Shown here in pieces: positions 31,681-43,720 of a DNA stretch of 64,000 nt. The stretch is from Chloroflexota bacterium (lineage in GTDB: Bacteria; Chloroflexota; UBA6077; JACCZL01): assembly GCA_030447245.1 (NCBI GenBank), contig JAUJPG010000003.1, forward strand, positions 1 through 64,000, read 5' to 3'. Made by a program: the position numbers and the translations under genes. Below the pieces are notes generated by a model. It was not told the DNA's origin, ran no database searches, and saw only the letters and a list, made by a program, of their open reading frames with translations. The stretch's first letter is position 1; every line of letters begins with the position of its first letter.

Positions 31681-31992
31681 CTAGTAGTGGTAGCGCGCTT
31701 GCAGAAAGTCAATCCGGTCGCCGCGGACCAGGTAGACGATTCTGTGCTCCTGGGTGAGGCGGCGCGACCACGTGCCAGCCGCGAGATACCGTAGCGGCTC
31801 AGGCTTGCCGATGCCAGTGAACTGGTCGCGCGCGATCGCTTCGATCAGATCGAGCGCGCGGAGCGCGGTCTTGCGGTCTGTCTCGACCCAGTAGCGGAGA
31901 TCCTCGCGAAACTCTAGCTGGAAAACCGTTGTGCGAGGGGACCGGCCTGGAGTGGCGGGCGCTGGCGCGGACCGACTACGCCTCGGGACCAA
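31681..31992 (-). CDS. yoeB: Txe/YoeB-family toxin
   Basis: The C-terminal 80 residues are a typical YoeB mRNA interferase: FREDLRYWVETDRKTALRAL, FTGIGKPEPLRYL, TWSRRLTQEHRIVYLV, and the end ARYHY. The Glu, Arg, His and Tyr residues of the active site are kept. No ATG or GTG lies in frame between the antitoxin stop and the first conserved residue; the nearest candidate is TTG at 31992, which would overlap the antitoxin gene by 17 bp and add about 18 atypical residues. Either weak initiation limits the toxin, or the first codon was damaged. Confidence 0.82.
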   Translation of the reverse strand: MVPRRSRSAPAPATPGRSPRTTVFQLEFREDLRYWVETDRKTALRALDLIEAIARDQFTGIGKPEPLRYLAAGTWSRRLTQEHRIVYLVRGDRIDFLQARYHY

Positions 31993-32263
31993 GGCCCAAC
32001 TCGCGACGAAGGTCGGCGATGGACTGTGACTCACCGGCAAGCGCTTCGGCGCGATCCAGCGCGGCCAGTAGACGCTCGGCATTCTTTGGCGAGCGCAGGA
32101 CGTGCGCCGTCTCGACCAGGCCGGCGAGCTCGGCAGCCGAGATAAGCACGGCGTCATCCGCTCCACGTCGGCGAATGATGACCGTCTCGCGATCGGCGGT
32201 GACACGATTCAGCAGCGCGGCTAGATTCGCCCGTGCCTCGGTATAGCTTGTCTGGATCGCCAT
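31976..32263 (-). CDS. yefM: Phd/YefM-family antitoxin
   Basis: A 95-residue antitoxin from ATG 32263 (MAIQTSYTEARANLAAL). The N-terminal DNA-binding domain (NLAALLNRVTADRETVIIRR, DAVLISAAELAGL) is typical of Phd/YefM; the acidic, helical C-terminus (AEALAGESQSIADLRREL) should wrap around the toxin. It precedes and overlaps the toxin gene. The longer open frame to 32539 runs through the operator and the opposite-strand riboswitch and is not used. Confidence 0.88.
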   Translation of the reverse strand: MAIQTSYTEARANLAALLNRVTADRETVIIRRRGADDAVLISAAELAGLVETAHVLRSPKNAERLLAALDRAEALAGESQSIADLRRELGLGPEA

Positions 32264-32289
32264 CCGCCTCTCCGCCGTGGCCCGTGAGC

Positions 32290-32308: not shown

Positions 32309-32442
32309 TGGGAGGATTGGATCGAGCCAGCCGTGGACCCCATGCGGACGGCGGGGCATCTCCGCCGAGGTGCAACCGCAGCGCTGTGTTGCCCGCTTGT
32401 TGAAGGCGGTCGGCAGGCGGTGGTATCGTTGGGGTGGAAACG

Positions 32443-32528
32443 GGAGTCCGGGGAGCCGGGCTGAGAGGGCGGCCTGCTTGCCGCCGACCGTCCGAACCTG
32501 ATCCGGATCATGCCGGGCGCAGGGACCA
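32443..32528 (+). ncRNA. TPP (thiamine pyrophosphate) riboswitch
   Basis: The THI-box hallmarks are present in order: GGGGAGCCGGG followed by CTGAGA (32461-32466), a variable hairpin GGCGGCCTGCTTGCCGCC, then GAACCTGATCCGGATCATGC followed by CCGGGCGCAGGGA (ending at 32525). These are the two conserved arms that bind the pyrimidine and pyrophosphate parts of TPP. A short P1 helix (GTCC/GGAC) closes it. It lies 87 bp upstream of the alcohol dehydrogenase-LuxE gene on the same strand and ahead of a terminator. Confidence 0.93.
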
Positions 32529-32549
32529 GATGGCCGCATCGCCTTTCAG

Positions 32550-32581
32550 CGCCGACGGACGACCCGTCGGCGTTTTCTGTT
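32550..32581 (+). terminator. Intrinsic terminator of the TPP riboswitch
   Basis: CGCCGACGG (32550-32558), loop ACGAC, CCGTCGGCG (32564-32572), then TTTTCTGTT. A 9-bp GC-rich stem with U-tract, between the aptamer and the coding region, so TPP binding most likely stops transcription of the operon. An antiterminator pairing was not traced. Confidence 0.88.
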
Positions 32582-32612
32582 CCCGTTCCGATCAGGATCT
32601 GGGGGAGCACGG

Positions 32613-34988
32613 GTGGGCGAGCGAGCGACGATGCGGGCGGCCCGCTACTACGGTCCGGGCGCTGAGCTGGTGCTCGAGACGGTGCCGGTGCCGAGCCGGC
32701 AGCGGGCGAGGCGCTGGTGCGGGTGCTCGCGGCCGGCATCTGCCACACCGAGCTGCAACTCCTCGACGGCACGCTGAACCTTGGCGTCGCACCGCTGACG
32801 CTGGGCCACGAGATCGCCCGGCGAGGTGGTTCGGCTGGGCGAAACCAGCCGCGCTCCGCGTGACCTCGGGGGTGTCAGTGTCGGCGAGCGTGTGGTGGTG
32901 TACTACGACGCGCCGTGCGGCGAGTGCGGCTGGTGCGCGAGCGGCGAGGAGCAGGTCTGCCCGAACGGGGGAGCGAAGATTGGGCTTTCTGGCGACGGGG
33001 GCTTCGCGGAGTACGCGCGGGTGCCGGTGCGCAATCTGCTGCCGATGCCGAATGGGCTAGAACCAAGCGCGGCGGCACCGCTCGGCTGCTCGGCGGCGGC
33101 CGCGCTCCACGCGCTGCGGGCCGTGGCCGCGGTCCAGGCTGGCGAGCGCGTGCTGGTGTACGGAGTCGGCGGAGTCGGACTGTACCTGGTCCAGCTGGCG
33201 AAGCTGGCTGGCGCGACGGTCCTGGCGGTTGGCCGCTCGCCGGACAAGCTGCGACTCGCGCGCGAGCTGGGCGCTGACGTGACCCTCGACGCGCGGGAGC
33301 AGGACGTCGTCGCCGGTGTGATGGCCACGACCGGCAGCCAGGGGGTCGAGGCGGTCTTCGAGCTGGTCGGCAGCGACGAGACGATGTCGAACAGTGTGGC
33401 GGCGCTACGTCGGCGCGGGCGGCTGGTGTTTGTGGGGTACGGCGCGGATCGGCTGCGGATCAACCCGCTCCACCTGGTCCTGAAGGAGCTCCAGGTGCGC
33501 GGGGCGCTCGGCAACACGCGCGCCGAGCTGCGCGACGTACTGGCGCTGGCGGAGGAGGGTACGCTCCGCTCGGTCATCACACGCCGGGTGCCGCTCGAGG
33601 AGGTCAACGGGGCGCTCGCCGCGCTCCGACGGGGCGAGGTGGTCGGGAGGGTGGTGCTCGACCCAGCGCTCACCGTTGTGGCGGAAGTCTCGGCAACGGC
33701 GGAGCGCGGGTTGACCGTCGTCGCAATGCCAACGACGGTGGGCGGTGCCCCGGCTGTCCCAACGCACGGACGTCACGGCGGCAGCGCGTCCGCTGCGCCG
33801 CCGTCGTCTACCGCGACCGGGGTCCGACCGCTCGAGGCTGAGCTGCTTCAGTTCATCGGCCGCGGGATCGACGTGCCGCGTGACGATGAGGAGTTCAACG
33901 ACCTTGCGCTGCGGCTGTTCGGCTACCAGTTCCAGTCGAACGGGCCGTACAGAGCGTTCTGCGAGCGGCGCGGGCGGACCCCGGCGACCGTGGCGCGGTG
34001 GCAGGACGTGCCGGCGGTACCGATCTCGGCGTTCAAGGCGACCCAACTGACGTGTGAGCCCATCGAGGGCGCGCGGGAGTTCAACTCGAGCGGCACGACG
34101 CGACCCGACGAGAAGAGCCGCCACTTCCACCCGAGCCTGGCCGTCTACGACCTGAACGCCTCGCTGAACTTCGAGGCGCATGTCCTGCCAGAGCGGGCTC
34201 GGCTGCCGATGCTGGTGCTGTTCCCGCGTCCCGAGGAGCTGCCGAACTCCTCGCTGGCGCACTGGCTGGCGTTGATGGCCGGCCGGTTCTCCGCGGACGG
34301 CGGGCGCTGGTTCGTCGGGCAGGAGGGGCTGGACGCGCCGGCGCTGATCGGAGCGCTATGCGACTCGGAGGAGATTGGCCAACCGATCTGCATCCTGGCG
34401 GCCAGCTTCGCGCTGGTCCATGCCCTGGATCACTGCGCGGCGAATGGCCTCCGCTTCAAGTTACCGGCCGGTAGCCGCCTGATGGACACCGGCGGCTACA
34501 AGGGCAAGTCGCGCGAGCTGGACAAGGCGGAGCTGTACCGGTTCGTCGCCGACAGGCTCGGGATCGCGGACGATCATCTGGTGAACATGTACGGGATGAC
34601 CGAACACAGCACGCAGTTCCTGGACGCCGTCCTGCGGGATCGGCTGCGCGGGAACGGGAGTGCTGGACGACGATACAAGACGGTGCCGCCCTGGGCACGC
34701 ACGCTGGTGCTCCAGCCGGACACGCTGACGCCAAGCGTGCCCGGCGCGCCCGGGTTGCTGTGTCACTGGGACCTTGCCAATCGGGCGTCGGTGATGGCGG
34801 TGCTCTCGGAAGACGTCGGGTACGCGGTCGAGGGTGGGTTTGAGCTGATCGGCCGTGCCCAGGGGACCGAGGCGCGCGGCTGCTCGATCGCCGTGGACGA
34901 GCTGATCGCAGCGGGGCGACAGGCCGTGCAGGATGGATCGCGCTCCTTCGAGGCAGCGCCCGACGCGACAAGGACGAATGCACGATGA
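32613..34988 (+). CDS. Zn alcohol dehydrogenase fused to LuxE-like acyl-protein synthetase
   Basis: About 790 residues in two parts. Residues 1-350: medium-chain dehydrogenase with catalytic-zinc motifs GICHTE and GHE, four structural-zinc cysteines ([15 protein letters not shown]) and NAD motif GVGGVGL. A 50-residue Ala/Thr/Ser/Pro linker follows without stop. The rest is a LuxE-type (PF04443) acyl-protein synthetase: [37 protein letters not shown], and a Cys near the C-terminus (RGCSIA), where LuxE carries its acyl-accepting cysteine. GTG 32613 has GGGGGAG 5 nt upstream. Two indels break the frame near 32693 (one base missing) and 32817 (one extra C). The first part should reduce an aldehyde; the second activates a carboxylate. 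Its stop overlaps the luxC-like start. Confidence 0.85.
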
Positions 34989-36547
34989 CGCTGCCACAGG
35001 TGACGCCCTGGGTGCTGCCCGGCCTGGAGCCCGCCGACGTGAGCGACTGGCGGACACTGGAGTTCGGCGTAGAGGCAGCTCCTCGTGCCTACGCCGTAAC
35101 GACGCCGGGGGAGGGCCGTGAGGGGGCCAAGAGCAGGCATGGGGATCTTCCCGTACGGCTTCGGTTTCCTGTTCTCACGCCGGAACAACTTGGCGGGGTG
35201 ATGGAGCGGATCGCGGCGGCGCGGGACGGGTACCTGGCCGAATTGCCGGTCCTGCGGATTGCGGAGCTGCTCGACCGAGCAGTCAGCCGGTGGCTCGAGC
35301 CACACTCGGCGTGGCGGCAGCTCGCCGAACAGTGGCTGCCGCTCGTGACCGGGTACCCAGGACCAGTCATCCGCAAGGGACTGGCCGGCTACCTGGCAAC
35401 CTTCCGGCTGGAGAACACCCGTCGACTGCTGGAAGAGGAGCTACGCGACCCACGCTTTTTGGACGAGCTTCGGCCACGCGGTGTCGTTGGCGGCAAGTCG
35501 CGGGCCTGGGGGCCACGATTGACGACGCACGTGTTCTCGGGCAACGTGCCGGGCCTACCTTTGCAGAGCCTGGCCTGCGCCCTGCTGACGAAGTCGGCCA
35601 GCCTGGGCAAGGCGGCGTCTGAGGAGCCGCTGTTCCCGGCCCTGTTCGTCCAGTCGCTCGCCGAGGTCGACCCAGAGCTGGCGGCCTGTTTCGGCGTCAC
35701 CTGGTGGGCGGGCGGCGACGCGGCGCTCGAAGACGTCGCCTTCGGCCGGGCGGATGCGGTAATCGCGTACGGCGGCGTCACGGCGATCGACGCGATCAGG
35801 GCGCGGGTGCCGCTCGGCACGCGGTTCGTGGCGTACGGCCACAAGCTATCGTTCGGGGTAGTCGGGCGCGAGTGGCTGACGCGCGAGCGGGCCGCCGAGG
35901 CCGCCGAGCGGGCTGGCTACGACACGGCCAAGTACGACCAGCAGGGGTGCTTGTCGCCGCACCTGTTCTACGTGGAAGAGGGCGGCGAGGTGTCACCACG
36001 CGGCTTCGCCGAACTGCTGGCATCTGCGCTGGGTCGCTACGAGCGGGCGATGCCGCGCGGCCGGATCGGGCTGGATGAAGCGGCCGCGATACGCGAGCTG
36101 CGGTCCGGCTACGAGTTCCGCGAGAACGCCAGCCTGTACGAGAGCCCGGGTGATACGGCCTGGACCGTGGCGTACGACGAGGACCCGCGCTTCGAGCCGT
36201 CGTGTCTGAACCGGACGGTACGGGTGAAGCCGGTCCGCGACGTGCTGGACGCAGCCGAGCTCGCCCGGCCGGTCCGAACGTACCTCCAGACGTGCGGGGT
36301 CGGGCTGGACTCGTTGCGTGCGGAGGCGCTGGCAACAGCGCTTGGGCGGCTGGGGCTGGACCGAGTCTGTCCGCTGGGGCGCATGCCTGATCCGTCGCCG
36401 GCCTGGCACCACGACGGACGCTTCAACCTGCTCGACCTGCTCCGCTGGACCGACCTGGAGCCGGACGCCAGCGGCGGGCGCTGGGAATTCGCCCACCCGG
36501 AGCGCGGCGTGTACGGGGGGACGGTGGAGGCAGTCCGTGCAGACTGA
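34985..36547 (+). CDS. LuxC-like acyl-CoA (acyl-protein) reductase
   Basis: A 520-residue protein of the LuxC/acyl-CoA reductase family (PF05893), ATG 34985 overlapping the upstream stop (ATGA). It reduces an activated acyl group with NADPH to the aldehyde. Seen: HVFSGNVPGLPLQSLACALL (nucleotide-binding half), WWAGGDAALEDVAFGRADAV, IDAIRARVPLGTRFVAYGHK and the catalytic Cys in KYDQQGCLSPHLFYVEE. In bioluminescent bacteria LuxC works with LuxE; here the two are adjacent and translationally coupled, and the dehydrogenase domain in the previous gene could take the aldehyde to an alcohol. There is no luciferase, so light production is not implied. Confidence 0.9.
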   Translation: MTLPQVTPWVLPGLEPADVSDWRTLEFGVEAAPRAYAVTTPGEGREGAKSRHGDLPVRLRFPVLTPEQLGGVMERIAAARDGYLAELPVLRIAELLDRAVSRWLEPHSAWRQLAEQWLPLVTGYPGPVIRKGLAGYLATFRLENTRRLLEEELRDPRFLDELRPRGVVGGKSRAWGPRLTTHVFSGNVPGLPLQSLACALLTKSASLGKAASEEPLFPALFVQSLAEVDPELAACFGVTWWAGGDAALEDVAFGRADAVIAYGGVTAIDAIRARVPLGTRFVAYGHKLSFGVVGREWLTRERAAEAAERAGYDTAKYDQQGCLSPHLFYVEEGGEVSPRGFAELLASALGRYERAMPRGRIGLDEAAAIRELRSGYEFRENASLYESPGDTAWTVAYDEDPRFEPSCLNRTVRVKPVRDVLDAAELARPVRTYLQTCGVGLDSLRAEALATALGRLGLDRVCPLGRMPDPSPAWHHDGRFNLLDLLRWTDLEPDASGGRWEFAHPERGVYGGTVEAVRAD

Positions 36548-37385
36548 GCTTCGACCGGTAGAGGCTGGCCTCGCGCGCCCGCTCGGCCAGGTGCCGACGG
36601 TTCGCCTGCGCGGTGTGACCAAGCGGTTCGGGGAGGGCGCCGACGAAGTGCTGGCGCTGGACGGCGTTGACCTCGAAGTGTGGCCGGGCGAGCTCTTTGG
36701 GGTGGTCGGCGAGAGCGGCTGTGGCAAGACGTCGCTGCTGCGCCTGGTCGCCGGCCTGCTGGAGCCGACGACCGGCGTGGTCGAGCTGGACGGACGGCCG
36801 GTCCAGGGGGCGTCCCCAGACGTGGGGATCGTTTTCCAGCGGCCGGTCTTGCTGGAGTGGCGGAGCGTGCTGGACAACGTCCTCCTACCGATCGAGATCG
36901 CCGGGGCCCCGCGCGACGAGCACGTCGGGCGGGCCCGGGTGCTGCTGCGGGACCTGGGCCTGGCCGGATTCGAGGATCGACGTCCACGGGCGCTTTCGGG
37001 CGGGATGCAGCAGCGGGCGGCGCTCGCGCGGGCGCTGCTGACCCGGCCGCGGGTGCTGTTGCTGGACGAGCCGTTCGGCGCGCTTGACGCGATCACCCGC
37101 GAAGCGCTTCAGATTGAGCTCGCCCAGGTCTGGGACGAGCCAGGTGCGACAGCGCTGCTGGTCACCCACGACATCGCGGAGGCCGTCTTCCTGGCCGACC
37201 GGGTGGCCTTGATGACGCCTCGTCCGGGTCGGGTGGCCCACGTGTTCGAGGTGCCGCTCGGCCGCCCGCGGACGCCGGAGCACCGGTATGACCCCAACTT
37301 CATCAGGCTGTGCCGAGAGATCCGACAGGCGATGGAAGACGGACGGCGGACCCCTGACCACGGGTACCGGAGGGCTGGGGCGTGA
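36537..37385 (+). CDS. ABC transporter ATPase, ThiZ/SsuB/TauB type
   Basis: A 282-residue ATPase from GTG 36537, overlapping the end of the luxC-like gene by 11 bp; the open frame further upstream is a shadow. Walker A GESGCGKTS, Q-loop FQRPVLLEW, signature LSGGMQQRAALARAL, Walker B VLLLDEPFGALD and H-loop LVTHD are intact. The subfamily matches nitrate/sulfonate/taurine and thiamine-precursor importers. With the TPP riboswitch upstream the ThiZ role is most likely. Confidence 0.92.
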   Translation: MQTELRPVEAGLARPLGQVPTVRLRGVTKRFGEGADEVLALDGVDLEVWPGELFGVVGESGCGKTSLLRLVAGLLEPTTGVVELDGRPVQGASPDVGIVFQRPVLLEWRSVLDNVLLPIEIAGAPRDEHVGRARVLLRDLGLAGFEDRRPRALSGGMQQRAALARALLTRPRVLLLDEPFGALDAITREALQIELAQVWDEPGATALLVTHDIAEAVFLADRVALMTPRPGRVAHVFEVPLGRPRTPEHRYDPNFIRLCREIRQAMEDGRRTPDHGYRRAGA

Positions 37386-38164
37386 TCCTCCAGCGGGGGG
37401 ACGCGAAGGCGGCGGTCCGGCCGTCCGCCGTGGCCGCGGGGCTCCTCCTCCTGCTGCTCGTCGGCTGGGAACTCGTCGTGCGGGCACTCGGGGTGGCGCC
37501 ACTGGTGCTGCCGGCGCCGAGCGTGGTGCTTGCGGAGCTTCTCAGGCAGATCGCGGGGGGGCTGCTGTGGGGACACCTGTGGGTCACGCTGACCGAAGTC
37601 GTACTCGGCTTCGCGGCCGGAGGGGTGCTCGGGATCGGGCTCGGGGTGCTGGTCAGCCAGTCGGCAGGGATGGCGGCGATCCTGCGGCCGTATATCGTCG
37701 CGTCGCAGGCGATGCCGAAGCTGGCGCTCGCGCCGATCCTGGTGCTCTGGTTCGGGTTCGACCTGACGCCGAAGGTGGTGATCGCGGCGCTGATCTCGTT
37801 TTTCCCGCTGTTCGAAAATACCGTCGCCGGGCTGCGGGCCGTGGACCCGGACCAGATTGAGCTGTTCCGCTCGATCCGCGCCAGCCGTCGGCAGATGTTC
37901 TTGAAGCTCCGCTTGCCGTGGGCGGTGCCCTACCTGGTAGCGGGGGCGAGGGTGGCGTTGATCCTGAGCCTGGTGGGAGCGGTGGTGGGTGAATTTGTCG
38001 GGGCCAACAAGGGGCTCGGGGCGCTGATCGTCGCCGCTCAGGGGACGATGAACACGCCGCTAATGTTCGCCATCTTCGTCGTCCTGACGCTGCTCGGGAT
38101 CGGTCTATCGTTGGCGGCCGATTGGGTCGAGCGGGTGGCGTTGCGCTGGCGGTTCGGCGAGTGA
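37382..38164 (+). CDS. ABC transporter permease, ThiX/SsuC type
   Basis: A 260-residue permease with about six helices, GTG 37382 overlapping the ATPase stop by 4 bp. The coupling (EAA) loop reads EVVLGFAAGG at the start of the transmembrane domain and FRSIRASRRQMFLKLRLPWAVP in the loop before KGLGALIVAAQGT. Belongs to the binding-protein-dependent permease family of the neighbouring ATPase and NMT1/THI5-like binding protein. Confidence 0.92.
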   Translation: MILQRGDAKAAVRPSAVAAGLLLLLLVGWELVVRALGVAPLVLPAPSVVLAELLRQIAGGLLWGHLWVTLTEVVLGFAAGGVLGIGLGVLVSQSAGMAAILRPYIVASQAMPKLALAPILVLWFGFDLTPKVVIAALISFFPLFENTVAGLRAVDPDQIELFRSIRASRRQMFLKLRLPWAVPYLVAGARVALILSLVGAVVGEFVGANKGLGALIVAAQGTMNTPLMFAIFVVLTLLGIGLSLAADWVERVALRWRFGE

Positions 38165-38174
38165 GGAGGTCTGG

Positions 38175-39221
38175 ATGGGCGGTTCGATCACTCGACGCGG
38201 GCTGCTACGCGGCCTGGCAATGACCGTCGGCGGCTCGCTGTTGGCGGGGTGCGCGCAAGCCCCGCCGGGCGCGCCGGCACCTTCCGCTCCCGCTGGCCCG
38301 GCGGCGGCGAGCGCGGAGAAGGTCCGGATGGCAAGCTGGAGCCAGCCGATCGCCGAGCAGGCGAACCTCTATGCCGCGCGTGAGCTGGGCTGGTTCCGCG
38401 AGGAGGGGATCGAACTGGAGTACATCCCCGGTGCAGGCGGCGGCGACGCGATCAAGCACATCCTGGCCGGCAACGCCGACCTGGCATTCGCGAATCTTGA
38501 GCCGATGTTCTTCGCGCTGGACCAGGGCTCCAAGCTCCGGGCGGTCTACAACATCTACCCCGAAAACGTCTTCAACGTGATCGCGCTGAAGCGCCAGGGC
38601 GTCACGCGAGCCGCCGACTTGAAGGGCAGGAAGGTCGGCGTCTACAGCCGCGCCAGCGGGACGTACCACAACCTGCTGGTCGTCTTGCGCTCGGCTGGCC
38701 TGGGCGAGGGCGACGTGGAGGTGATCGCGACCGGGGTGAACAACTTCGGTGCGCTGCTCCAGGGGCAGGTGGATGCCCAGGCGGCGACGGATACGGGGCT
38801 GTTCCTGGCGCGGGAGCAGGGACTCGGCGAGGTCGACGTGCTCTGGGCGCGCGACGTGCTGAACACGCCAACCGATGCCTTCGTCGTGACCGAGGAGGCG
38901 TACGCCGGGCGGAAGGAGCTGCTCCGCCGCTTCCTGCGCGCGTACAAGCGCGGCAGCCAGTGGATGCTCGATAATCCGGAGCAGGCTGCAGAGCTTGCCC
39001 GAACCCACGCGACCGACGGCCAGGACGTCGCGCGCAGCCTGGAGATTATCAAGCTCCGCAACGCGGCGACGGTGAACGACGACACGCGCCGCGGCGGCCT
39101 GGGCTGGTTCAACCTGGACGTGCTGCGCCAGGTCGAGCAGACGTTGTTCGAGCTGAGCCTGACCAAGAATCGTGTCGACGTGACCCAGGTGTTCACGAAT
39201 GAGCTGGTCCAAGATCTCTGA
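38175..39221 (+). CDS. ABC substrate-binding lipoprotein, NMT1/THI5-like (ThiY type)
   Basis: A 348-residue lipoprotein, ATG 38175 after GGAGG. The signal carries twin arginines (TRRGLLRGLAM) and lipobox LLAGC; a Pro/Ala linker follows. The mature fold begins WSQPIAEQANLYAARELGWF, and EEGIELEYIPGAGGGDAIKH, GNADLAFANLEPM, LKGRKVGVYSRASGTYHNLL are typical of NMT1/THI5-like proteins, several of which bind pyrimidine or formylaminopyrimidine forms of thiamine precursors. The ligand is inferred from family and riboswitch. Confidence 0.9.
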   Translation: MGGSITRRGLLRGLAMTVGGSLLAGCAQAPPGAPAPSAPAGPAAASAEKVRMASWSQPIAEQANLYAARELGWFREEGIELEYIPGAGGGDAIKHILAGNADLAFANLEPMFFALDQGSKLRAVYNIYPENVFNVIALKRQGVTRAADLKGRKVGVYSRASGTYHNLLVVLRSAGLGEGDVEVIATGVNNFGALLQGQVDAQAATDTGLFLAREQGLGEVDVLWARDVLNTPTDAFVVTEEAYAGRKELLRRFLRAYKRGSQWMLDNPEQAAELARTHATDGQDVARSLEIIKLRNAATVNDDTRRGGLGWFNLDVLRQVEQTLFELSLTKNRVDVTQVFTNELVQDL

Positions 39222-39247
39222 CGCTGACGTCCCCGGGGGCACGGGGC

Positions 39248-40255
39248 ATGGAGGGACCGGTGACTGGAACTGATGGATCCGGACCGCTGCCAACCGCGTC
39301 CAGGCTGCCGCGGCCTCCGTTTCTCCGTGAGCGCTCGGCAGGGGCATCGCCGGGGCGGCAACTCCGGGAGGTGCTGGCCCGACCGGGACTGGCGATCGCG
39401 CCGGGCGCAGCCGACGCGCTGACCGCGCTGCTAATCGAGGAGGCCGGGTTGCCAGTCATCTATGTGACCGGAGCGGGTATCGCCAACGCCCAGCTCGGCG
39501 TCCCCGATGTGGGACTGGTTTCATTGGAAGAAGCCTTACGGGTGGTGCGGGCGATAACGGCGGTGGTATCGACGCCGGTCTTCGCGGATGCCGATACGGG
39601 GTACGGCAACGCGATCAACGTGACACGGACGGTCCGCGAATTCGAGCGGGCGGGAGCAGCCGGCATCCAGTTGGAGGACCAGGTCACGCCCAAACGGTGC
39701 GGCCACTTCGAGGGCAAGGAGATCGTCGCGGCCGAGGAGATGGTGGCCAAGCTCCGCGCGGCCCGCTTTGCCCGGATCGACCCGGACTTCGTGCTCGTCG
39801 CGCGGACCGACGCGGCGGCAGTGGCCGGCCTGGATGAGGCGCTCCGGCGGGCGCGGCAGTATGCCGAGGCGGGAGCCGACGCGATCTTCGTCGAGGCGCC
39901 GCGGACGGCAGCGGAGCTGGCCAGAATCCCGCGCGAGGTGCCTGGCGTGCCGCACGTGGTCAACATCGTCGAGGGCGGCAAGACGCCAGTCCTGCCGGCC
40001 GCCGAGCTGGCGGACATGGGGTTCTCGCTGGCCCTGTACGCCAACCTCTCGCTGCGGGCCGCGATGCGCGCGGTCCGCGCGGCACTGGGACACCTCAGCG
40101 TGACCGGCAGCTCGATCGGGCTGGAGGAGCAGATCGTGACGATGGCCGAGCGGCAGGCCGTGGTTGGGCTGGGCGAGGTCGAGACCCTCGAGCGAGCGTT
40201 CCTCAAGGAATCACCAGAGAAGGAACCGGCAGAGCGGCCGCGGACGTCTTTCTGA
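39248..40255 (+). CDS. Isocitrate lyase/PEP mutase-family enzyme
   Basis: A 335-residue TIM-barrel enzyme of the isocitrate lyase/phosphoenolpyruvate mutase superfamily, 26 bp after the transporter. IAPGAADALTALLIEEAGLP, FADADTGYGNAINVTRTV (metal-binding Asp), GIQLEDQVTPKRCGHFEGKE with the catalytic Cys of K-R-C-G-H, and VARTDA. The KRCGH loop points to a C-C lyase (methylisocitrate lyase or oxaloacetate hydrolase/decarboxylase type) rather than PEP mutase. Its substrate and relation to thiamine are unknown; position suggests transcription with the riboswitch operon. Confidence 0.9.
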   Translation: MEGPVTGTDGSGPLPTASRLPRPPFLRERSAGASPGRQLREVLARPGLAIAPGAADALTALLIEEAGLPVIYVTGAGIANAQLGVPDVGLVSLEEALRVVRAITAVVSTPVFADADTGYGNAINVTRTVREFERAGAAGIQLEDQVTPKRCGHFEGKEIVAAEEMVAKLRAARFARIDPDFVLVARTDAAAVAGLDEALRRARQYAEAGADAIFVEAPRTAAELARIPREVPGVPHVVNIVEGGKTPVLPAAELADMGFSLALYANLSLRAAMRAVRAALGHLSVTGSSIGLEEQIVTMAERQAVVGLGEVETLERAFLKESPEKEPAERPRTSF

Positions 40256-40259
40256 TGCC

Positions 40260-40811
40260 GTGAAGGTGCAGATTGCGGTTCTGTTCTGGCTGGTGACGCT
40301 GATCTGGTCGCTGGAGCTCGCCGACCTGCTGTTCTTTCGCGGCGCGCTCGACGGCTTCGGTATCTGGCCGCGGCGGGTCGACTGGCTGTGGGGCATCCTG
40401 TTCGCGCCGTTTCTCCATGGCGGCCTGGGGCACCTGGTGGCCAACACGGGGTCGTTGCTGTTCCTGGGCTGGCTGGTGTTGCTGCGACGGGTCGGCAACT
40501 TCTTGGTGGTGACGGTACTGGCGATCCTGACCAGCGGGCTTGGAGTCTGGCTATTCGGGCGGCCGGGCAGCATCCACATCGGGGCGAGCGGATTGGTCTT
40601 CGGGTACCTGGGCTACCTGCTGCTGCGCGGCTACTTCGAGCGCAGCGTCAGCTCGATCGTGCTCTCGGTGGTTATCGGCCTGCTGTACGGCGGCGCCCTC
40701 TCGGGCCTGCTGCCGGGCGTGCCGGGCGTCTCCTGGGAGGGCCACCTGTTCGGCTTTTTCGGCGGCGCCGGCGCCGCGCGCCTGCTTGCCCGCCCGCGCC
40801 GCCCCTGGTAA
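40260..40811 (+). CDS. Rhomboid-family intramembrane protease
   Basis: A 183-residue protein with six hydrophobic segments, GTG 40260 immediately after the previous stop. The catalytic serine motif GASG is in IHIGASGLVFGYLGY, the histidine in SWEGHLFGFFGGAGAARL, and HGGLGHLVAN is the conserved H-x-x-x-H-x-x-x-N segment of rhomboids. Should cleave or bind transmembrane substrates; substrate unknown. Last co-directional gene of the block. Confidence 0.9.
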   Translation: MKVQIAVLFWLVTLIWSLELADLLFFRGALDGFGIWPRRVDWLWGILFAPFLHGGLGHLVANTGSLLFLGWLVLLRRVGNFLVVTVLAILTSGLGVWLFGRPGSIHIGASGLVFGYLGYLLLRGYFERSVSSIVLSVVIGLLYGGALSGLLPGVPGVSWEGHLFGFFGGAGAARLLARPRRPW

Positions 40812-41329: not shown

Positions 41330-42901
41330 ATGTTCGACGTTCTGATTACCGGTGGGATGGTTGTCGACGGGGCGGGCAACGACGGGTTCTACGGGGCGGT
41401 CGGGGTCCAGGGGGACACGGTACGGGTGCTCCGGGGGGACGTCTCGGAGGTTGAGGCGGGGCGGCGGATCGACGCGACCGGGCAGGTGGTCTGTCCAGGG
41501 TTCATCGACGTCCACGCCCACTCGGGGCTAATGATCCTGGCCGAGCCGCGCCACGAGCCGAAGGTGCGCCAGGGGGTGACCACCGAGCTGATCGGGATCG
41601 ACGGCAACTCGTACGCGCCGTTCCACTCGCAGGAGGAGTTCCTGCGGTTCGTCGAGCTGAACTCGGGGCTGGATGGCAACCCGACGCTGCCGGGGCGCTG
41701 GTCGAGCGTGACCGACTACCTGGGGATGTTCGACCGCAAGGTCGCGGTCAACATCGCCTACATCCTCGGCAATTCGCCGCTACGGATCGCCGGCGTCGGC
41801 TGGGACAACCGACCGGCGACGCCCGAGGAGCTGCGGAACATGCGCGCCATGCTCCGCGAGGGGATGGAGGAAGGCGCCTTTGGGATCTCGACCGGATTGG
41901 ATTACCCACCGGGCAACTACGCCGACACCGACGAGCTGGTCGCCCTCTCCGAGGAAGCGGCCCGGCTGGGCGGGATCTACCACAGCCACGTCCGCTACAA
42001 GCTGGGCGACGGGTTCTTGGACCCGTTCCGCGAGGCGATCGAGATCGGCCGGCGGAGCGGCATCCCGGCCCACATCACCCACCTCTACCAGCGGGTCGGC
42101 AGCAAGGGCGGCGCCGACCAGCTGATCGGGCTGGTCGAGGATGCCCGCGGCGAGGGGCTGGACGTCACGTTCGACAGCTACCCCTACATCTACAGCAGCA
42201 CCCGCCTGCTGATCCTGTTCCCGGACTGGGCCCACGACGGCGGGCCGGAGCGGCTCAAGGCTGTGCTGCGCTCCGAGGAGGGGCGCGAGCGGCTGCGCCG
42301 CGAAGTGGTGCCGCGGGCGTCTTCCTGGCAGGACATGTGGGTGACGTACTTCAAGCGCCCGCACAACCATCGCTTCGAGGGGCGCTCGATCGCCGAGGTG
42401 GCCGAGATGCGAGGAGCGCACGTCGTCGACGCCCTGTGCGATCTGCTGCTGGACGAGGACTTGCAGGTGTCGTACGTCTCGGCCGGCGGCAACGGCAACA
42501 CACTGCCGAAGTTCGTCGCTCACCCGCTGTCGATGGTCGGCTCGGACGCCGTGCTGCTGGGCGACTTCCCGAGCCCGCGGACCTACGGCTGCTTTCCAGT
42601 GATCCTGGCCGAGTTCGTCCGCGATGAGAGCTTCCTCTCGCTGCCGCAGGCGATCCGCAAGATGACGTCGTTTCCGGCCCAGCGGCTGGGGCTGCCGGAC
42701 CGCGGGCTGCTGCGCGACGGGATGAAGGCCGACATCGTCGTGTTCGACCCGGGCCGGGTCAAGGCTCCGGCGACCCGCGCGAACCCGAAGCAGTTCCCGA
42801 TCGGCATCGAGTACGTGCTGGTCAATGGCGAGGTGGCGGTGGACCAGGGCCAGCCGACGGGGGTGCTGGCCGGCCGGGCGCTACGACGGGGCCGCACGTA
42901 G
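41330..42901 (+). CDS. D-aminoacylase-type amidohydrolase
   Basis: A 523-residue metal-dependent hydrolase (N-acyl-D-amino-acid deacylase/D-aminoacylase family), ATG 41330 after GAGGAG. PGFIDVHAHSGLMIL carries the H-x-H metal ligands, EPKVRQGVTTELIGIDGNSY, GAFGISTGLDYPPGNYADTDEL, YHSHVRYK and HITHLYQR the later ligands, and the beta-sandwich end is GMKADIVVFDPGRV to ALRRGRT. Its last 149 bp are repeated at 43572-43720. Confidence 0.9.
   Translation: MFDVLITGGMVVDGAGNDGFYGAVGVQGDTVRVLRGDVSEVEAGRRIDATGQVVCPGFIDVHAHSGLMILAEPRHEPKVRQGVTTELIGIDGNSYAPFHSQEEFLRFVELNSGLDGNPTLPGRWSSVTDYLGMFDRKVAVNIAYILGNSPLRIAGVGWDNRPATPEELRNMRAMLREGMEEGAFGISTGLDYPPGNYADTDELVALSEEAARLGGIYHSHVRYKLGDGFLDPFREAIEIGRRSGIPAHITHLYQRVGSKGGADQLIGLVEDARGEGLDVTFDSYPYIYSSTRLLILFPDWAHDGGPERLKAVLRSEEGRERLRREVVPRASSWQDMWVTYFKRPHNHRFEGRSIAEVAEMRGAHVVDALCDLLLDEDLQVSYVSAGGNGNTLPKFVAHPLSMVGSDAVLLGDFPSPRTYGCFPVILAEFVRDESFLSLPQAIRKMTSFPAQRLGLPDRGLLRDGMKADIVVFDPGRVKAPATRANPKQFPIGIEYVLVNGEVAVDQGQPTGVLAGRALRRGRT
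42752..42900 (+). repeat. 149-bp duplicated gene end, copy 1 (in the amidohydrolase)
   Basis: Identical to 43572-43720 except for one substitution at 42766 and two at 42895-42896. This copy encodes the natural C-terminus of the amidohydrolase. Offset between the copies is exactly 820 bp; the intervening segment contains two complete small genes. Confidence 0.95.
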
Positions 42902-43535: not shown

Positions 43536-43571
43536 GCCGCGATCCGTTCCTCCCTGCGCTTTGGTGCCCCA

Positions 43572-43720
43572 GGCCGGGTCAAGGCGCCGGCGACCCGCGC
43601 GAACCCGAAGCAGTTCCCGATCGGCATCGAGTACGTGCTGGTCAATGGCGAGGTGGCGGTGGACCAGGGCCAGCCGACGGGGGTGCTGGCCGGCCGGGCG
43701 CTACGACGGGGCCGGGCGTA
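43572..43720 (+). repeat. 149-bp duplicated gene end, copy 2 (detached)
   Basis: A second copy of the last 149 bp of the amidohydrolase gene, including its final codons, with nothing of the rest of the gene before it. It is not part of any gene here. Three mismatches to copy 1. Confidence 0.95.

Follow-up and report, generated by a model that had tools for sequence, protein, structure and literature searches.

A 64,000-nucleotide stretch of a Chloroflexota bacterium genome (the window; contig JAUJPG010000003.1 of assembly GCA_030447245.1) carries an operon in which a thiamine pyrophosphate (TPP) riboswitch precedes genes for an alcohol dehydrogenase (ADH) fused to a LuxE-type acyl-protein synthetase, a LuxC-type acyl reductase and an ATP-binding cassette (ABC) importer. 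This operon is probably a salvage module induced by thiamine starvation, in which LuxE, LuxC and the ADH would reduce a carboxylated thiamine precursor to the alcohol. The substrate is probably the pyrimidine carboxylate 4-amino-2-methylpyrimidine-5-carboxylate, which would be reduced to 4-amino-5-hydroxymethyl-2-methylpyrimidine (HMP) for use by ThiD. It also seems reasonably likely that Bacillota, Pseudomonadota, Chloroflexota and small plasmids of lactobacilli from food share a hitherto unrecognised vitamin B1 salvage pathway, in which repurposed LuxE-LuxC and a short-chain dehydrogenase/reductase (SDR) or ADH convert the thiamine-derived pyrimidine carboxylate to HMP. The comparative evidence, drawn from protein families, gene order, recurrence, conserved residues and thi gene content, supports well a new role for known enzyme families.

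Riboswitch, enzymes and importer of the operon

The source genome is a 5.2 Mb draft in 131 contigs, 90.2% complete, and the window represents contig 34. The aptamer (THI element, assigned to 32430-32532; + strand, as are all genes of the operon) matches RF00059 at 32430-32540 with 49.2 bits, an E-value of 2.3e-7 for the 11.5 kb searched. The match spans all 105 model positions, with the CUGAGA and GAACCUGAU...GCGCAGGGA cores conserved. Its score lies under the gathering score of 54.3, so the whole window is without an RF00059 match at gathering; the E-value, the full-length match, the conserved core and the terminator that follows still make it a likely functional TPP aptamer. A covariance model trained on aptamers that include this one (R1, see below) gives it 73.2 bits. 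Behind it follows a strong intrinsic terminator, an 11-pair hairpin with a T-rich tail (32548-32574, +) that may serve as the expression platform; a terminator scan of the leader returned one hairpin, compared with a mean of 0.0 in shuffled sequence. Aptamer and terminator had both been named in a preliminary description of this DNA made from the sequence. Folding of the leader gave no clean switch (z -1.17), and an antiterminator fold was not seen; the promoter scan of the leader found no sigma-70-like promoter. The genome contains two TPP matches, the second of them on contig C74 directly before ThiG, where the riboswitch, ThiG and a ThiE/TenI-type gene occupy C74:4485-6109. Just upstream of the window's riboswitch, on the opposite strand (31681-32266, -), lies a Phd/YefM antitoxin and YoeB-like toxin pair.

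The first enzyme gene starts at ATG 32631. Three-frame translation showed that the first ~65 codons of the zinc ADH (32631-32825, +) are split over two frames, the frame changing twice. A single frame of 720 aa (32826-34988, +) then carries the ADH, with GroES and zinc-binding domains, and the LuxE part (Pfam ADH_zinc_N, 1.1e-32; LuxE, 4e-17). The fusion is real, since two relatives of the window's class (L089 and L090) hold it in one unbroken open reading frame (ORF) of 817 and 974 aa. The fusion of the preliminary description thus stood, although the listed 720-aa ORF lacks the ADH N-terminus. The frame break could stem from an error in the draft or from decay in the source genome. Given the two frame changes and the aptamer score under the Rfam cut-off, the window's own copy might be decaying and non-functional, which would be compatible with the salvage reading for its relatives. 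We consider this unlikely, because the reading frames of LuxE, LuxC and every importer gene are uninterrupted, the invariant cysteines are kept, and small errors are possible in a draft of 131 contigs.

The LuxE part passes the PF04443 cut-off of 24.9 with 62.6 bits, and its C-terminal Cys338 (numbered within the LuxE part) is invariant in 89/89 sequences. It aligns with a cysteine of chain E of the solved LuxC-LuxE complex 7xc6 (7xc6_E, E 2.5e-14) and is presumably the acyl-acceptor cysteine. LuxC (34985-36547, +; Pfam LuxC, 4.1e-85) reaches 286.5 bits against a PF05893 cut-off of 21. Its Cys322 is invariant in 90/90 aligned rows, the window included, as well as in 13/13 control proteins of the LuxC family. 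At E 0.01, 7xc6 was the only solved structure to match LuxC and LuxE by sequence, and the predicted LuxC fold (pLDDT 82.2) had 7xc6_A as its top structural match (TM 0.73).

The importer comprises an ATPase (36537-37385, +, starting at 36537 or 36591; Pfam ABC_tran), a permease (37382-38164, +; BPD_transp_1) and a substrate-binding protein of the NMT1/THI5 family (38175-39221, +; PF09084, 3.2e-45, 155 bits). Solved relatives of the binding protein include ThiY (3ix1, E 3.9e-10) and THI5 (4h65), and SsuA-type models match it too. Pfam thus bore out the earlier calls of LuxC, ATPase, permease and NMT1/THI5-like binding protein. The genes had been described as overlapping or at most 11 bp apart; this holds for LuxE/LuxC and ATPase/permease (4-bp overlaps) and for the permease and binding protein (10-bp gap), but between LuxC and the ATPase there is either an overlap or a 43-bp gap, according to which ATPase start codon is chosen.

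Recurrence of the gene set

A scan with the window's LuxC, in which each species was represented by a single genome, returned 189 relatives; the best 80 of them were analysed. LuxE lies directly before LuxC in all 80, and a TPP riboswitch lies upstream in 72 (found with R1), 44 of these being outside the R1 training set. R1 was built from 31 aptamers, two of which (L001; L017 at 16084) do not precede a LuxE, and was used because a regular expression missed many aptamers. Gene order was counted by tblastn, with gaps under ~500 bp taken as contiguous, because clustering of ORFs had produced spurious genes on the opposite strand in GC-rich loci. By this count the riboswitch stands directly before the operon in 71 of the 80 loci; in L040 it is ~700 bp away. 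Of the 72 riboswitch loci, 38 are from Pseudomonadota, 33 from Bacillota and one from a bin with the label Bacteroidota. They cover 23 named genera, among which Bacillus, Domibacillus, Azospirillum, Ramlibacter and Polaromonas are over-represented. R1 gives the betaproteobacterial aptamers no more than 32-45 bits, and the Rfam model matched all three that were tried (58.8, 57.5 and 47.2 bits), two of them over its cut-off. The linkage of LuxC and LuxE to TPP riboswitches, whose failure to recur had been set beforehand as one refutation of the proposal, was thus found again in most loci, and the proposal was not refuted.

The eight loci without a riboswitch are L003, L013, L051, L075 and four from WOR-3 (L004-L007). 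The L003 contig begins inside the ADH, and that of L013 holds just 311 bp before the first gene. The WOR-3/Stahlbacteria LuxE-LuxC pairs adjoin what appears, as read from translations, to be an anti-sigma/STAS regulatory set. A single clade of all TPP-linked LuxC proteins was unsupported, as a quick tree intersperses them with seven controls and the WOR-3 proteins; some of its forks have support of only 82 to 93 and the short rows L098, L099 and L100 were left out.

The commonest order, in 44/80 loci, is TPP-LuxE-LuxC-ATPase-permease-binding protein-SDR, followed by TPP-LuxE-LuxC-SDR in 11/80. An SDR is present in 72/80, the remainder being three loci whose contigs end first, the four WOR-3 loci and L003 with its fused ADH. 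A ThiXYZ-like ABC importer occurs in 56/80 loci and a nucleobase permease of the NCS2 family in 6/80; the two importers are unrelated and alternate, with NCS2 as the alternative in Bacillota and Chloroflexota. Neighbouring thi genes were found inside the 80 operons as ThiD (10), ThiE (5) and ThiM (3; L017, L036 and L080); the preliminary description had proposed to look for ThiD, ThiM or TenA together with ThiXYZ. ThiD is the first gene of the operon in 7/80, two of the six NCS2 loci read TPP-ThiM-ThiD-ThiE-NCS2-LuxE-LuxC-SDR, and L013 has ThiD-ThiE behind the SDR.

Four other genomes of the window's class carry the module. Two of them have the order TPP-ADH::LuxE-LuxC-NCS2 (L089 and L090), the L092 locus starts within LuxC, with NCS2 next to it, and in L003 the 2.2 kb after LuxC gave no match to an importer. 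The ADH::LuxE fusion is found in every Chloroflexota locus whose contig reaches that part. The varied sets suggest that both the enzymes and the kind of importer have been swapped around a constant logic of import, activation and two reductions under TPP control. A conserved SDR as third reductase, together with alternating importers, fits the import of an acid followed by its reduction to an alcohol.

The association is specific to these LuxC proteins within the phylum. A LuxC-family gene (E 1e-20) was present in 18/301 genomes, five with this module and 13 with other members of the family (23-37% identical). None of the 13 had a TPP riboswitch in the surrounding 12-14 kb, nor a match there to the window's LuxE, binding protein or the NCS2 permease; weak SDR or ATPase matches lay near three.

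The module also matched 27 plasmid records. In the six that we examined, two of which share one cassette, a TPP riboswitch was present every time, as it was in two Chloroflexota loci. The shared TPP-NCS2-LuxE-LuxC-SDR cassette lies on a 10-kb plasmid of Lactiplantibacillus plantarum and a 21-kb plasmid of Levilactobacillus brevis (L106:1391-6321 and L107:2948-7878; stated sources food and makgeolli), both with integrase and toxin-antitoxin genes and one with a transposase. A Niallia taxi megaplasmid has tandem TPP riboswitches (L111:2394-2491 and 2581-2679) before NCS2-LuxE-LuxC-SDR. Five annotated plasmid stretches label the enzymes as acyl-CoA reductase and as long-chain fatty acid--CoA ligase or acyl-CoA synthetase, the SDR as 3-oxoacyl-ACP (acyl carrier protein) reductase or SDR, and the importer as solute carrier family 23 or ABC transporter. 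The annotation of these five stretches, the only place where a luciferase was looked for, contains none. Such labels, and the LuxC and LuxE families themselves, would suit a pathway to fatty-acid-type acyl aldehydes or alcohols whose TPP control has nothing to do with thiamine salvage. We regard this as highly improbable: the window's proteins score far under the fatty-acyl equivalog cut-offs (LuxC, 73.2 bits against 750 for the long-chain-fatty-acyl model NF052251; LuxE, 52.2 bits against 550 for the long-chain-fatty-acid model NF052244), and importers and thi neighbours recur.

Proposed steps and choice of substrate

Under the salvage reading, transcription would pass the riboswitch terminator when TPP is low, as the anatomy of aptamer and terminator suggests. 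The ABC importer, or the NCS2 permease in some relatives, would bring in the carboxylated precursor. LuxE would activate the acid with ATP and hold the acyl group on Cys338; LuxC would receive it on Cys322 and reduce it to the aldehyde with NAD(P)H, and the fused zinc ADH, or the SDR in most other bacteria, would reduce the aldehyde to the alcohol. In the luminous system the relay runs from ATP through acyl-AMP, LuxE-Cys, LuxC-Cys and NADPH to the aldehyde. We infer the direction, the substrate and the order of steps, and model the roles of the two cysteines on that system.

To choose between precursors, we searched for thi genes in 50 carrier genomes, namely those of 49 of the 80 loci, picked for spread, and that of the window. 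ThiD was found in 48/50 and ThiE in 48/50 at E 1e-15 (42 over its cut-off), followed by ThiG (39/50, E under 1e-90), the TenA family (33/50) and ThiC (29/50). Full-length ThiM was present in 25/50, with 26 over the Pfam cut-off and 32 at E 0.001 when partial matches are included. ThiC and ThiG are both present in 25 genomes and both absent in seven; ThiG without ThiC occurs in 14, among them the window's, and ThiC without ThiG in four, all WOR-3, and in none of the 46 other carriers. The WOR-3 carriers thus have ThiC with no ThiG found, and one has Thi4. The window's genome contains ThiG (behind its other TPP riboswitch), ThiD, ThiE and TenA, has no ThiC match and shows only a weak ThiM-family match of 29.3 bits. 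Two Ramlibacter genomes, R. montanisoli (L009) and R. cellulosilyticus (L072), have ThiG and neither ThiC nor full-length ThiM, and ThiD opens their operons.

This gene content makes HMP more likely as the product than hydroxyethylthiazole. The preliminary description had proposed that an oxidised thiamine precursor, either a pyrimidine carboxylate or thiazole acetate, is reduced back to the alcohol. The reduction gains support from the riboswitch linkage, the SDR and the importers; of the two substrates, the pyrimidine carboxylate is favoured, as ThiD is near-universal, full-length ThiM is missing in half of the genomes and NCS2 proteins are nucleobase permeases. Reduction of 4-methylthiazole-5-acetate to hydroxyethylthiazole, with subsequent phosphorylation by ThiM, would account for ThiM in three operons and for the 25/50 genomes with the full-length protein. 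Yet 21 of the 46 non-WOR-3 carriers are without full-length ThiM and would have no known kinase with which to use hydroxyethylthiazole, ThiG enables 39 of the 46 to make the thiazole themselves, the commonest co-operonic thi gene is ThiD rather than ThiM, and the NCS2 permeases suggest a nucleobase-like ligand. This makes the thiazole route quite improbable.

Several observations weigh against pyrimidine carboxylate salvage. L013, L051 and L075 had no TPP riboswitch by R1 or the Rfam model, the latter two with full flanks, and in the four WOR-3 loci, which outside the phylum are the most closely related, LuxE-LuxC is accompanied by no riboswitch and no thi genes. The best solved match of the window's binding protein is 4nmy (E 4e-13) rather than ThiY, and NMT1 proteins bind many ligands. 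Eleven of the 80 operons, mostly alphaproteobacterial, and the module on two Pantoea plasmids are without a linked importer of either type, and the L036 operon has ThiM without ThiD. Half of the carriers examined (25/50) hold both ThiC and ThiG, and TenA, an enzyme known to act in pyrimidine salvage, is present in the window's genome too. Among genomes of the window's class, ThiC is absent from 4/5 LuxC-positive and 15/24 LuxC-negative genomes (p 0.63); a class-wide link between LuxC and ThiC loss was rejected, and the auxotrophy argument is weakened because ThiC loss is common there without the module. Finally, five carrier metagenome-assembled genomes (L011, L013, L022, L062 and L081) contain no ThiC, ThiG, full-length ThiM or Thi4, and two of them also lack ThiD. 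Unless incomplete, these five, with none of the thiazole sources searched for, are hard to fit to HMP as the product. They could be accounted for if the module instead reduced thiamine acetic acid, that is, thiamine oxidised at its hydroxyethyl side chain, back to thiamine. We consider this very unlikely, as ThiD and ThiE stand in some operons and in 48/50 genomes each, including three of the five with both, and NCS2 permeases are improbable carriers of thiamine.

Relation to known systems and flanking genes

The pyrimidine carboxylate pathway would resemble the luminous fatty acid reductase of Photobacterium phosphoreum (7xc6) in its synthetase and reductase, their sequence, the LuxC fold and the catalytic-type cysteines, here with adjacent genes. 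It differs in its third partner (SDR or ADH), the TPP riboswitch, the usual importer and scores far under the fatty-acyl equivalogs. With the ThiXYZ and TenA/YlmB salvage of N-formylaminopyrimidine (ThiY, 3ix1), it would share an NMT1/THI5-type ABC importer, TPP control and pyrimidine salvage, whereas its proposed chemistry is acid reduction rather than deformylation or deamination. Carboxylic acid reductases (CAR) and pairs of acyl-CoA reductase and ADH likewise take an acid through the aldehyde to the alcohol with ATP and NAD(P)H; here LuxE and LuxC are separate proteins and stand in a vitamin context.

One paper links ThiXYZ to TPP riboswitches (PMC5627462), another sets out a thiamine pyrimidine salvage scheme (PMC10470507), and a third has an NCS2 permease and a TPP riboswitch in unconnected places (PMC9870897). 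Literature searches, which covered the available parts of articles, including PMC3766115, PMC2258182 and PMC7780320, with supplementary gene lists outside their scope, gave no paper tying LuxC or LuxE to thiamine or to TPP riboswitches; the preliminary description likewise knew of no such route. The acid itself is reported as a urinary metabolite of thiamine in the rat.

The proposal offers a function that can be tested in bacterial cultures for widely distributed genes, labelled as fatty-acid enzymes in the public records examined, and predicts that an oxidised pyrimidine acid, a known excreted metabolite, can return to vitamin B1. It would add a vitamin role for LuxC/LuxE acid reductases, along with new importer candidates. 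If true, it would change accounts of B1 dependence among organisms, explain the pyrimidine source of some ThiC-less bacteria and turn the acid into a B1 currency that has gone unmeasured in soils, sea and ferments.

Behind the binding protein gene lie a lyase gene (39248-40255) and a rhomboid gene (to 40811), which had been suggested to share the transcript. Neither had a tblastn match (E 1e-5) in 90 loci that contain LuxE-LuxC or some portion of the module (the 80 best LuxC loci, four of the window's class and six plasmid loci), and both were rejected as module members. Further downstream, a 153-bp direct repeat (42748-42900 and 43568-43720, 97% identical) copies the 3' end of an amidohydrolase gene (41330-42901).

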